DNA from: Gemmatimonas sp.
GTDB taxonomy: Bacteria; Gemmatimonadota; Gemmatimonadetes; Gemmatimonadales; Gemmatimonadaceae
Length of the DNA: 40,469 nucleotides
Assembly (NCBI GenBank): GCA_013822285.1
Contig: PNKF01000004.1
Coordinates: 1 to 40,469, forward strand
Direction: 5' to 3'
The position numbers and the translations under genes were made by a program. The notes under the pieces are model-generated. The model worked only from the letters and a program-made list of their open reading frames with translations, was not told where the DNA came from and did not search any database. Shown here piece by piece: positions 15,026-26,897 of this stretch. The number at the start of each line of letters is the position of its first letter. Position 1 is the first letter of the stretch.

Positions 15026-15099
15026 TCGGGACGGCGGGATTCGAACCCGCGACCCCCTGAACCCCATTCAGGTGCGCTACCGGGCTGCGCTACGTCCCG
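15026..15099 (-). tRNA. tRNA-Pro (anticodon GGG)
   Basis: The 74-base cloverleaf is complete. The acceptor CGGGACG (15099-15093) pairs with CGTCCCG (15033-15027), followed by discriminator A. The D-arm begins GCGC, the anticodon arm is CCTGA-ATGGGGT-TCAGG with anticodon GGG, and the T-arm is GCGGG-TTCGAAT-CCCGC. A first base C is characteristic of proline tRNAs. CCA is not encoded. Confidence 0.97.
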
Positions 15100-15850: not shown

Positions 15851-15880
15851 TTGACGGAAGTCCTGCGCGGCGTGTATGCT
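15851..15880 (+). promoter_or_regulatory. Sigma-70 promoter of the phhA leader
   Basis: TTGACG (15851-15856), an 18-base spacer and TATGCT (15875-15880) form a good promoter. The -10 ends eight bases before the leader-peptide ATG at 15889, so the transcript may start at the ATG itself. The divergent -10 TAAAAT (15845-15840, minus strand) is only five bases from this -35, so polymerases at the two promoters should compete. Confidence 0.75.
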
Positions 15881-15888
15881 CCGTCACG

Positions 15889-15972
15889 ATGTCGCGCCGC
15901 CGCCTCGCCACCACGACCTATTACTACACGCCCCGGATCCCGGGACGCGGAGTCCGAGCCGTGCGCGCCTAG
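15889..15972 (+). CDS. phhA leader peptide with three tandem Tyr codons
   Basis: A 27-codon frame from ATG to TAG between the promoter and phhA. Residues 8-14 read TTTYYYT; the Tyr codons TAT TAC TAC occupy 15919-15927, just before a set of mutually exclusive RNA helices. Three consecutive Tyr in a 27-residue peptide is far from chance and mirrors the regulatory codons of amino-acid-operon leader peptides. Translation would sense charged tRNA-Tyr: stalling at the Tyr codons covers RNA strand 1 and frees strand 2. No Shine-Dalgarno sequence is visible; leaderless initiation is likely. The peptide itself probably has no other role. Confidence 0.82.
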   Translation: MSRRRLATTTYYYTPRIPGRGVRAVRA

Positions 15973-16041
15973 CGACACACCAGCGCAACACCAGAGCTCG
16001 AGTTCCCCAGCGCCCCGTGGATCCTCCACGGGGCGCTTTTT
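15929..16041 (+). promoter_or_regulatory. Ribosome-mediated Tyr attenuator: pause, anti-terminator and terminator helices
   Basis: Four strands can be traced. Pause hairpin 1:2 pairs 15929-15936 with 15940-15947 (7 pairs, one C-A mismatch). Anti-terminator 2:3 pairs 15941-15948 with 16010-16017 (7 of 8) and continues with 15949-15959 against 15996-16006 (10 of 11, two G-U), leaving three bases bulged. Terminator 3:4 pairs 16009-16021 with 16025-16037 (13 perfect pairs). Strand 2 cannot be in 1:2 and 2:3 at once, nor strand 3 in 2:3 and 3:4. A ribosome stalled at the Tyr codons would mask strand 1, favour 2:3 and let transcription reach phhA. With ample Tyr-tRNA the ribosome runs to the stop at 15972 and the terminator forms. 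Confidence 0.8.
16009..16041 (+). terminator. Attenuator terminator before phhA
   Basis: A 13-bp perfect stem (16009-16021 with 16025-16037), a three-base loop and a run of five T (16037-16041) end 24 bases before the phhA ATG. Such a strong intrinsic terminator between a promoter and the gene it should express makes sense only as a conditional terminator. Confidence 0.93.
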
Positions 16042-16065
16042 GTCGTCCCTATCACCCAACGCGTC

Positions 16066-16881
16066 ATGTCAGCCTCACACCCGCATGCCCACGCACACCG
16101 CGCCGCCTCGGGCGATCGCCATCACGACGCCATCGCGCCCGTCGAGGCCGAGCTTCCGGAGTTCCGATCGCAGGACTACGGCCGCTACGACGCTGAAGCG
16201 CACGACGTGTGGCAGATCCTCTTCGCCCGTCGCATGGCCACGCTCGCCGACACCGCAAGCCAGGTCTTCCTCGACGGCATGGCGCGCATCGGCCTCGAGC
16301 CTGAGCGCGTGCCTGACCTGCGCGAGGTGAACCGCCGGCTCGACGCCAGCACGGGCTGGAACGCCGTTGGCGTGGACGGCTTCATTCCCGCCGAACAGTT
16401 CTTCCGCTGCCTCTCGCGCCGTCGCTTCCCGACCACGCTCATCGTGCGCCCGCGCGCCCAGCTCGACTACCTGCCCGAGCCCGACATCTTCCACGATGTC
16501 TTTGGCCACGTGCCGCTGCACGCCGATCCAGTCTTCGCCGACTTCCTCCAGCGATTCGGCGCCCTCGCGGCCGCCGCGCGCACGCCGGAAGAAACCACCC
16601 AGATGGCGCGCCTCTTCTGGTTCACCGTGGAGTTCGGCCTGATCCGCGAGCGCGGGGCCGTGCGCATCTACGGCAGCGGACTCATCTCCTCGCACGGCGA
16701 CGCGGCGAACGCGCTGGGGCCCAAGGTCGAGCGGCGGCCTTTCTCACTCGACGCCGTCATCAACCAGCCCTTCGCAATCGATCACTTCCAGGACGTGCTC
16801 TTCGTGGTCGAGCACTTCGATCAGCTCTTCGACGCCGTGGAAACGCTCACGCAACGTCAGCGGACGGTGCAGCGCGAATGA
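16066..16881 (+). CDS. phhA: Phenylalanine 4-monooxygenase
   Basis: Converts L-phenylalanine to L-tyrosine with O2 and a reduced pterin cofactor. The 271-residue protein has the monomeric bacterial length and lacks the regulatory ACT domain of animal enzymes. The iron-binding facial triad is visible: His143 and His148 in FHDVFGHVPLH, and Glu189 in FTVEFGLI. The pterin and substrate regions (TGWNAVGVDGFIPAEQFF, FPTTLIVRPRAQLDYLPEPD) are typical. The N-terminal 25 residues are His-rich and probably disordered. The gene stands alone; control by a Tyr-codon attenuator implies it is switched on when tyrosine is short, pointing to a biosynthetic role. No pterin-recycling gene is adjacent. Confidence 0.96.
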   Translation: MSASHPHAHAHRAASGDRHHDAIAPVEAELPEFRSQDYGRYDAEAHDVWQILFARRMATLADTASQVFLDGMARIGLEPERVPDLREVNRRLDASTGWNAVGVDGFIPAEQFFRCLSRRRFPTTLIVRPRAQLDYLPEPDIFHDVFGHVPLHADPVFADFLQRFGALAAAARTPEETTQMARLFWFTVEFGLIRERGAVRIYGSGLISSHGDAANALGPKVERRPFSLDAVINQPFAIDHFQDVLFVVEHFDQLFDAVETLTQRQRTVQRE

Positions 16882-16991: not shown

Positions 16992-17222
16992 ATGAAAACC
17001 GTGACCATGCACGCCGCGAAGACCAATCTCTCGAAGCTCGTCGCTGCCGCCGAGGCGGGCGAGGAAGTCGTCATCTTGCGCGGCCGCACCCCCGTCGCGC
17101 GCCTCGTGGGATTGGACGTCGCACCGGCCCGCAGCTTCGGGGCGCTCAAGGACGTCGTGCAGGTGACGCCGGCATTCTTCGAGGCGCTGCCCGACGCCGA
17201 ACTCGACGCCTGGGAAGCCTGA
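16992..17222 (+). CDS. Phd/YefM-family antitoxin
   Basis: A 76-residue type II antitoxin. The N-terminal MKTVTMHAAKTNLSKLVAAAE followed by GEEVVILRGRTPVARLV is the Phd/YefM DNA-binding dimer domain. The acidic C-terminus (ALPDAELDAWEA) should wrap the toxin and block its active site. It is three bases from the PIN-domain gene, in the usual antitoxin-first order, and has its own promoter with repeated operator-like sequences. Confidence 0.92.
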   Translation: MKTVTMHAAKTNLSKLVAAAEAGEEVVILRGRTPVARLVGLDVAPARSFGALKDVVQVTPAFFEALPDAELDAWEA

Positions 17223-17225
17223 CGC

Positions 17226-17612
17226 GTGCGTGTCCTGCTCGACACGCACGCGCTGCTCTGGTGGCTGGCCGGCGACGACAAGCTCTCCACGCGCGCGCGG
17301 CGCACCATCGCGGACAGTCGCCATGAGGTCTTCGTGAGTGCGGCCTCCGCATGGGAGGTCGCGACCAAGCACCGCATCGGCAAGCTGCCCGGCGCGGGGC
17401 CGCTGGCCGTGGATTTCGCCCGTGAGGTCCGAAGGCAAGGCTTCATGTCCCTGCCGATCTCGCTCGAGCAGGCCCAGGTTGCCGGTGCCCTCCCCGGTGA
17501 CCACCGGGACCCCTTCGACCGCATGCTGATCGCACAGGCGCGCGAGGAACGCTTGGCGCTGGTTTCCGCCGAGTCGCTGTTCGACGACTACGGCGTCACG
17601 CGCATCTGGTAG
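17226..17612 (+). CDS. PIN-domain ribonuclease toxin (VapC-like)
   Basis: A 128-residue PIN domain. The acidic metal-binding residues are Asp6 (LLDTHALLWW), Glu44 (SAWEVATKHRIGKL), Asp95 and Asp98 (HRDPFDRMLIAQA), all intact, so it should be an active Mg-dependent RNase. The WEVATKHRIGKL text matches the subgroup that pairs with Phd-type antitoxins. It starts with GTG three bases after the antitoxin stop. The RNA target cannot be read from sequence. Its 3' end is 18 bases from the convergent CBS-transporter gene. Confidence 0.92.
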   Translation: MRVLLDTHALLWWLAGDDKLSTRARRTIADSRHEVFVSAASAWEVATKHRIGKLPGAGPLAVDFAREVRRQGFMSLPISLEQAQVAGALPGDHRDPFDRMLIAQAREERLALVSAESLFDDYGVTRIW

Positions 17613-20259: not shown

Positions 20260-20323
20260 ACAAGTGGGAAATGAGAAGGTCCCTGCGGCCACCGGCCATA
20301 GGGACCCCTTCAGGACCTGCCAG

Positions 20324-20396
20324 AGCGGGCGATGGGGTTCGAACCCACGACATCCAGCTTGGGAAGCTGGCGCTCTACCAACTGAGCTACGCCCGC
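20324..20396 (-). tRNA. tRNA-Gly (anticodon CCC)
   Basis: A complete 73-base cloverleaf. The acceptor GCGGGCG (20396-20390) pairs with CGCCCGC (20331-20325), with discriminator T as usual for glycine. The D-arm is GCTC...GAGC, and the anticodon arm CCAGC-TTCCCAA-GCTGG gives anticodon CCC. The T-arm GTGGG-TTCGAAC-CCCAT has a G-T pair at its base. CCA is not encoded. Confidence 0.97.
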
Positions 20397-23799: not shown

Positions 23800-24820
23800 G
23801 CAACCCCTCTCACGCCGTGCGCCGTGGCCGGCGCTGCGTCTCGCGTTCGCGTGCCTGGTCTTCACCGCGAGCGCCGACGCGCAGGACATCCGCGCCATCC
23901 AGGATTCACTCGCGGCCATGCGGGAGCGAGTGGCCGACGCCCGACAGCAACTGGCCAACGCCGAGTTCCGCGTGCGGGCGCTGCCGAACGACTCGCTCGA
24001 GCTTTCGGGTGCAAAGGTGCTCTTCAACTCGGCGGACGTGCCGCCGGCAGAACGCCGCCGTCTCGCCAAGGCCTTCGCGCGTGCCGAGCGTGAACTCGTG
24101 CGCGACCTCGGGGATGACGGCCGCTCACTGCTCGCCGAGACGCGCTGGCAGATCATCGTGTCGCAGCGACCGGGGATGTTCGAGCGCCCGTATGTGAGCC
24201 TCGTGCCGCTCTATCGCCGCACGGCAGGCGCCAGCGCGAGCCCGAGTGCCGTGCTGCGATTCCCGATCGCGCAGGGCAGCGTGTCGTACCTCGTGAAGCG
24301 GGGCGCCGGCGAGCGCCTCGTGATCCGCCATGCCTCGCTCAACAACTGGCTCGGCGGCTCGTTGTACCTGCGCGACCCCGCGGATACCTACTACGCGGCC
24401 TCGCGCGAACTCGCGCTGCGCGGCAACGGGAAGTCGCGGCGCTGCGTCCGCGGTGACATCGCCGAGTGCGCCATCATCCTCGATCCCGCGAGGCGGGACG
24501 AATGGTACGAAGGCGAGTCGGAGAATCGTCGCATGCCACCGGCCTCGCACGCCGTGCGCGAGAGCGTGCTGCACTTCGTGCTGGAGCGCGCGGGACCGTC
24601 GCTACTGTCGACGATTGCGGCCGCGCCCGACTCTGCGGAGCCCATCGCCTTGCTCGCCCAAGCCGCGGGACTCTCGCGAGAGGAGTTGCTGAGGCAATGG
24701 CAGCTCGCCATCTCCAGTGGCGGCACGACGCGGGCGCAAGTCGCGCCGCGCATGGCGCTCTCGAGCCTACTGTGGATCGTCCTATTCGGCGCCGTCGCCG
24801 TCCGCCGGAGGCCCCGCTAA
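23792..24820 (+). CDS. Exported, C-terminally anchored protein of unknown function in the ABC operon
   Basis: A 342-residue protein with a signal peptide ending SADAQ, a helical coiled stretch (residues 32-62), a soluble domain and a C-terminal membrane helix (LSSLLWIVLFGAVAV) followed by RRRPR, so most of it should face the periplasm. The text HAVRESVLHFVLERAG ... LSREELLRQWQLAI resembles the C-terminal part of peptidase-MA-like proteins, but no HExxH is present, so enzymatic activity is doubtful. It overlaps the permease gene by eight bases and the next gene by one, and may be an accessory or sensor for the transporter. Family not recognised. Confidence 0.75.
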   Translation: MSRQPLSRRAPWPALRLAFACLVFTASADAQDIRAIQDSLAAMRERVADARQQLANAEFRVRALPNDSLELSGAKVLFNSADVPPAERRRLAKAFARAERELVRDLGDDGRSLLAETRWQIIVSQRPGMFERPYVSLVPLYRRTAGASASPSAVLRFPIAQGSVSYLVKRGAGERLVIRHASLNNWLGGSLYLRDPADTYYAASRELALRGNGKSRRCVRGDIAECAIILDPARRDEWYEGESENRRMPPASHAVRESVLHFVLERAGPSLLSTIAAAPDSAEPIALLAQAAGLSREELLRQWQLAISSGGTTRAQVAPRMALSSLLWIVLFGAVAVRRRPR

Positions 24821-26575: not shown

Positions 26576-26703
26576 GAAAGGCCTCTCGAACGAGTGAGCG
26601 TGACGGGGCAGCCAGTGGGACGGCCGGATGGCGCAGAAGTTACCCCCAAAGCCGCATTTCGTGCCACGGCGCGGTGGGGCGCGGCCGGCGTGGCGAATGC
26701 AAA

Positions 26704-26734
26704 CGCGGCCCCCGGCAGAGTGCCGGGGGCCGCG
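26704..26734 (-). terminator. GC-rich hairpin downstream of the tRNA fragment
   Basis: Arms 26704-26717 and 26721-26734 form a 14-bp perfect stem with loop GAG, 24 bases beyond the 3' end of the tRNA-like fragment on the minus strand. This is the right place for the native terminator of the interrupted tRNA gene and supports the view that the left side is original chromosome. Confidence 0.65.
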
Positions 26735-26757
26735 AGGCAAGTCTAGAGTTGCTGCAG

Positions 26758-26785
26758 AGCCACAGGTGGGAATTGAACCCACGAC
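26758..26785 (-). other. 3' end of a tRNA gene: likely prophage attachment site (attL)
   Basis: On the minus strand the sequence holds a T-arm, GTGGG-TTCAATT-CCCAC (26782-26766), then CTGTGGC as acceptor 3' strand (26765-26759) and discriminator T. Upstream on the same strand there is no anticodon arm, D-arm or acceptor 5' strand, so only the 3' end of a tRNA is present. Chromosomal genes lie on one side and phage genes on the other. This is what remains when a phage integrates into a tRNA gene and supplies its own copy of the 3' end at the other junction. The amino acid cannot be told; the missing acceptor strand should begin GCCACAG. Confidence 0.75.
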
Positions 26786-26897
26786 CGCTTGGCGGGAGTA
26801 ATCGCGCCGCGCAGCAGGTTCGCTCTGGTTTCACTCTGAGCGAAGGCCAGTCGAGCGGCTCTGGAGCCCCGAACGCCCGCCGAATCCAGAAGTCGAA

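Follow-up and report, generated by a model that had tools for sequence, protein, structure and literature searches.

The phenylalanine hydroxylase gene phhA of a Gemmatimonas sp. appears to be controlled by transcription attenuation, in which a ribosome translating a leader peptide gauges the supply of charged tRNA-Tyr; judging from sequence comparisons, we put the probability of this reading at about 0.9. The gene lies on contig PNKF01000004.1 (assembly GCA_013822285.1), of which positions 1-40,469 were analysed and are called the window here. The draft genome measures 2.53 Mb and is 72% complete; among named genomes, those closest to it are MAGs of the Gemmatimonadaceae.

A tyrosine-codon leader upstream of phhA

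A sequence-only reading of the window had described a promoter, a 27-codon leader frame with the codons TAT TAC TAC, a set of alternative helices and a 13-bp terminator with five T, all of which lie where it placed them (Table 1). The promoter is the sole promoter-like site between 15700 and 16200 (0.1 in shuffled sequences). The pattern TAYTAYTAY is present twice in the window, where 0.01 copies would be expected over 40 kb; the second copy is located within a 214-aa frame. The intrinsic terminator contains 13 pairs (16009-16037) plus the five T (to 16041) and ends 24 nt before phhA. The encoded protein scores 303 bits with NF008877 (curated cut-off 247) and 155 bits with PF00351, and its HDVFGHVPL stretch is presumably the iron-binding region of the family.

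Table 1. Elements of the phhA leader region, with positions in the window
Feature	Position	Strand	Support
Sigma-70-type promoter, TTGACG-18 nt-TATGCT	15851-15880	+	-35 and -10 boxes arranged alike ahead of the leader in most relatives
Leader peptide frame, 27 codons, MSRRRLATTTYYYTPRIPGRGVRAVRA	15889-15972 (ATG 15889, TAG 15970-15972)	+	Conserved in relatives
Regulatory codons TAT TAC TAC, directly 5' of segment 1	15919-15927	+	Tyr codons at the same place in relatives
Segment 1, 5' arm of pause hairpin 1:2 with segment 2 (15927-15935 with 15941-15949)	15927-15935	+	Columns 12-20/27-35 of alignment A1, covariation
Segment 2, encodes P-G-R; partner of segment 1 (hairpin) or 3 (anti-terminator core)	15939-15949	+	
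Outer anti-terminator extension, 5' side, pairs with 15996-16006	15949-15959	+	Window and L004 sequences; fold
Outer anti-terminator extension, 3' partner	15996-16006	+	Fold
Segment 3, terminator 5' arm and anti-terminator 3' arm	16009-16021 (conserved core 16010-16020)	+	
Segment 4, terminator 3' arm, then T run (16037-16041)	16025-16041	+	
phhA, phenylalanine 4-monooxygenase, 271 aa, contains HDVFGHVPL	16066-16881	+	NF008877, PF00351

In the proposed mechanism, RNA polymerase would start beside the leader ATG, with a ribosome translating the leader behind it. When Tyr-tRNA is ample, the ribosome would pass the Tyr codons and reach the stop codon, letting hairpin 1:2 form; segment 3 would then be free to pair with segment 4, and the resulting terminator would halt transcription ahead of phhA. 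When Tyr-tRNA is scarce, the ribosome would stall on the three Tyr codons and cover segment 1, so that segments 2 and 3 pair, the terminator is blocked and phhA is transcribed. Since the reaction of PhhA converts phenylalanine to tyrosine, the enzyme would be controlled by its own product.

The -10 box of the window ends 8 nt before the leader ATG and no Shine-Dalgarno sequence precedes this ATG; the leader is therefore probably leaderless or close to it. Its counterparts in relatives are arranged similarly: the best -10 box lies 6-8 nt 5' of the ATG in 26 of the 32 phhA leaders described below, a promoter score of at least 8 at this spacing is reached by 20/32 leaders against 35/4432 control ATGs, and an SD-like tetramer is found before 1/32. 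Leaders of the other target genes show a similar arrangement. The transcript would probably have almost no 5' untranslated stretch, its first base being the start of the leader frame or adjacent to it.

Conservation on phhA and two PhhA lineages

Upstream regions of phhA were collected from the sampled genomes and their contigs, oriented, and scanned for a short frame with clustered Tyr codons followed by a terminator. This gave 32 non-redundant loci, four of which (L044, L047, L049, L052) come from MAGs titled Acidobacteriota; this phylum was sampled through four genomes, MAG organism names can be wrong, and most of the genomes are drafts. The 32 leaders were aligned (alignment A1), and a covariance model of the phhA leaders (R1) added five more loci. 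This comparison had been proposed in the sequence-only reading; the Tyr codons and the helices are conserved upstream of phhA in relatives, with compensatory changes.

The leader and terminator are present on 37 of the 47 sampled phhA genes of a first PhhA lineage (Gemmatimonadota, Acidobacteriota), and on 0/22 of a second lineage, which is set apart by a long branch in the PhhA tree and whose members are mostly encoded next to hppD (Fisher p = 1e-10, a statistic that ignores kinship). The ten first-lineage genes lacking the element are all from Gemmatimonadota and form clades of six and three plus a single row (L045). A search with R1 of 36 loci lacking the leader gave no match. Gemmatimonadota carry both lineages (seen in L233-L252, among other loci), the more distant one being mostly beside hppD and devoid of the attenuator.

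Three alternative helices

Twelve of the 20 pairs of helices 1:2 and 3:4 are changed on both sides in A1, with 35 double-changed cells against 8.8 in shuffles (0/500). In these two helices 88.7% of the cells are paired, a figure that falls to 31-48% when the alignment is slid by 1-3 columns. Helix 2:3, which has columns in common with both of the others, shows 10 double-changed cells against 2.4 expected (0/500) and a covariation score reached in 0/500 shuffles. In L052 and L043, segments 2, 3 and 4 are changed together. The anti-terminator pairing of the sequence-only reading is present in the window, but its conserved part is a 10-position core, pairing 15939-15948 with 16010-16019; beyond this core, the outer extension can be made out clearly only in the closest relatives.

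Hairpin 1:2 has a mismatch at one position in 30/32 leaders, as does 2:3 at the corresponding position in 19/32, which should leave the terminator as the strongest helix. ViennaRNA gives hairpin 1:2 a median energy of -9.9 and the terminator 3:4 one of -24.7. Covering segment 1 leads to 2:3 in 31/32 leaders; with nothing covered and segment 4 available, 3:4 forms in 32/32. The mutual exclusion of the three helices is supported both by the covariation of all three and by folding. MFE folding before segment 4 has been made prefers 2:3 over 1:2, so the switch needs kinetic, co-transcriptional folding, like other attenuators. The Tyr codons abut segment 1 in A1, a placement that would let a stalled ribosome cover it.

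The same frame before other amino-acid genes

A set of 395 Gemmatimonadota genomes was searched with R1; 80 match regions were fetched and representative downstream genes named. Matches were found in 158/395 genomes. Apart from phhA, the frame precedes genes for DAHP synthase (63 leaders, counted by homology to the named representatives), tyrA (three), pheA (nine; L146-L148, L150, L154, L155, L176, L177, L197), thrA (four; L156, L158, L191, L199) and hisG (three; L205, L210, L213). Examples of the DAHP synthase leaders are L117, L157 and L160.

The regulatory codons correspond to the amino acid that the downstream gene helps to make: phhA and tyrA have Tyr codons, pheA has Phe, thrA has Thr and hisG has His, with Tyr or Phe on DAHP synthase (led by Tyr in 45/63 leaders and by Phe in 18/63). 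On average, a leader contains 3.6 Tyr on phhA, 4.3 Phe on pheA, 10.3 Thr on thrA and 6 His on hisG. DAHP synthase aside, 51/56 leaders have a leading sensor residue that suits their gene, against a maximum of 40 in 100,000 permutations; for phhA this match is biased, since the founding 32 leaders were picked by a Y..Y pattern and R1 includes Tyr columns, a selection that does not touch the Phe, Thr and His leaders. The His leaders also show a concerted change in segments 2, 3 and 4, which read GACGGG/CCCGTC instead of the CACGGG/CCCGTG of the Tyr leaders. In several genomes (e.g., G017, G028, G030, G052, G055, G057, G076, G078 and G080), a Tyr leader on DAHP synthase has tyrA 1-2 kb downstream, and in G027 the leader directly precedes tyrA. 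This match of codons to pathways across targets strongly supports Tyr sensing on phhA, and finding the same frame, with matching codons, on aroF-tyrA, tyrA, pheA, thrA and hisG strengthens the tyrosine attenuation put forward in the sequence-only reading well beyond what a single locus could do.

We give an even chance to the wider proposal that these elements form a modular Gemmatimonadota attenuator family reaching Acidobacteriota, in which phhA, aroF-tyrA, tyrA, pheA, thrA and hisG all received copies of one ancestral frame whose leader was leaderless, with the sensor codons alone exchanged, and phhA took over as the Tyr-regulated gene for tyrosine synthesis where TyrA is absent. The helix patterns of attenuators stay alike over long distances (PMC1262725); the shared frame could therefore be convergent, and common descent is not a result of this analysis.

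Weak R1 matches before purA (L207, L220, L222) have a strong terminator and no sensor codons, and were taken as bare terminators.

Tyrosine metabolism in the carrier genomes

Six genomes of one genus, the window's own (G000) together with G002, G004, G007, G011 and G016, carry a leader-type phhA and PheA (PF00800). TyrA (PF02153) is absent or under the cut-off in these six, and its C-terminal domain (PF20463) is absent in all of them; G011 is a single contig, 100% complete. With PheA and PhhA found and TyrA not, PhhA is the sole recognised tyrosine route in the window's genome and in the five others of its genus. This absence of a recognisable TyrA beside PheA, for which the sequence-only reading had proposed a search, fits a tyrosine-making PhhA. 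In a further member of the genus, G009, both PheA and TyrA are present. Three more (G006, G014, G015) have PheA and neither TyrA nor PhhA detected; they may be tyrosine auxotrophs or use an unrecognised route.

TyrA is present in 10/26 genomes with leader-phhA and absent in 48/123 others; over these 149 genomes, the link between TyrA absence and leader-phhA is weak (Fisher p = 0.05, again ignoring kinship). We therefore discarded TyrA absence as proof of an anabolic role and let it count in favour of that role in the window's genus. PF00800, too, is missing from some leader-phhA genomes; in the four Acidobacteriota genomes, TyrA is over the cut-off in 0/4 and PF00800 is present in 1/4. Pterin-4a-carbinolamine dehydratase is present in 12/12 genomes tested. 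Taken together, the gene content suggests that the window's clade would obtain its tyrosine through PhhA, and that elsewhere the enzyme would be an accessory route.

The same attenuator could instead serve a catabolic PhhA, its Tyr codons slowing the breakdown of phenylalanine whenever tyrosine abounds. A catabolic role is the usual description of bacterial phhA (PMC1173090), and most of these genomes encode HPPD, the window's among them. However, such an arrangement would have low tyrosine switch on a catabolic step, and the PhhA lineage linked to hppD is the one without the leader. The same leader is also found on aroF-tyrA and tyrA, and most members of the window's genus with a leader-type phhA have PheA with no TyrA found. 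We consider the catabolic role improbable and favour tyrosine-responsive control of an anabolic PhhA.

The arginine-rich tail of the leader peptide

The Tyr codons of the leaders are followed by a conserved Arg-rich tail, T/P-G-R-x-x-R-R-x-R, as might be expected if the nascent peptide itself bound tyrosine and stalled the ribosome as a ligand-specific arrest peptide. The TGR part of the tail is accounted for by segment 2, though, and the frame is unchanged where the sensor residues follow the gene and become Phe, Thr or His, which makes an arrest peptide very unlikely. Equally hard to sustain is a small independent gene with its own terminator and an unregulated phhA: intrinsic terminators are common after short genes, but here the frame itself contains segment 2, which resembles segment 4 and shows covariation with segment 3, and the residue composition of the leader tracks the downstream gene.

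In most leaders, the stretch that separates segment 2 from the stop codon retains GGAGGCGTnTGCGC, encoding RRVRA (A1 columns 36-53; window 15949-15969, where the copy is degenerate). This SD-like stretch is unexplained by helices 1:2, 2:3 and 3:4, and may slow or re-start ribosomes.

Comparison with known attenuators

The T-box of Firmicutes tyrosine genes resembles the phhA element in that tRNA-Tyr charging is sensed and a terminator controlled. T-boxes bind uncharged tRNA directly, without a leader peptide. No T-box was matched in the window, where the two tRNA genes were the only matches, nor at the locus up to E 10, and Rfam searches gave no leader, T-box or riboswitch family.

With the Phe leaders (pheA, pheST) and the trp attenuator of Proteobacteria, whose features we take from general knowledge and PMC1262725, the phhA element shares a cognate-codon leader, three alternative helices, an intrinsic terminator and a biosynthetic target. 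It differs from them in its Tyr codons, its phhA target, its occurrence in other phyla and the lack of a Shine-Dalgarno sequence before the leader. The actinobacterial trp, leu, ilv and cys attenuators are likewise classical attenuators outside Proteobacteria, with conserved complementary triples in their helices; for the operons of Tyr, Phe, Thr or His, the same survey of Actinobacteria saw no RNA structure of this type. It lists attenuators for His, Thr and Phe, and gives T-boxes as the RNA elements that control tyrosine genes in other bacteria (PMC1262725). The uORFC-13-1 motif of Acholeplasma aroF also combines an upstream frame and a terminator on DAHP synthase, with possible attenuation; there, one or more Phe codons are proposed as the sensor, a ribosome-binding site is present, and clade and target are different (PMC8632094).

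We found no earlier report of a Tyr leader peptide or a phhA attenuator in the open-access literature, most subscription journals being outside the search. The mechanism would be that of classical ribosome-mediated attenuation, the new parts being the Tyr-specific leader peptide, the phhA target and these phyla. Tyrosine would join the amino acids sensed via leader peptides, and the element offers RNA-level evidence that a bacterial phenylalanine hydroxylase, best known for phenylalanine breakdown, can serve tyrosine synthesis. It also opens two phyla with few annotated attenuators, as said of Acidobacteria in a 2010 survey, in which almost no predicted attenuator of that phylum had a function (PMC2965389). 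The natural codon swaps (Tyr, Phe, Thr, His) on one RNA frame provide a ready test of codon sensing and of attenuator evolution.

Other features of the window

Two further R1 matches in the window, both on the reverse strand, were rejected: at 24429-24510 the match lies opposite a coding frame, and at 26700-26806 a terminator is present but a suitable leader was not seen. The region 26700-26830 of this strand contains a GC-rich terminator hairpin, and the stretch 5' of it resembles a tRNA 3' half. The tRNA genes found by ARAGORN in the window are a tRNA-Pro (15026-15099) and a tRNA-Gly (20323-20396), and no others. Just 3' of phhA, at 16992-17612 on the forward strand, a Phd/YefM-type antitoxin-like frame is followed by a PIN-domain-like (VapC-like) frame, as judged by eye.
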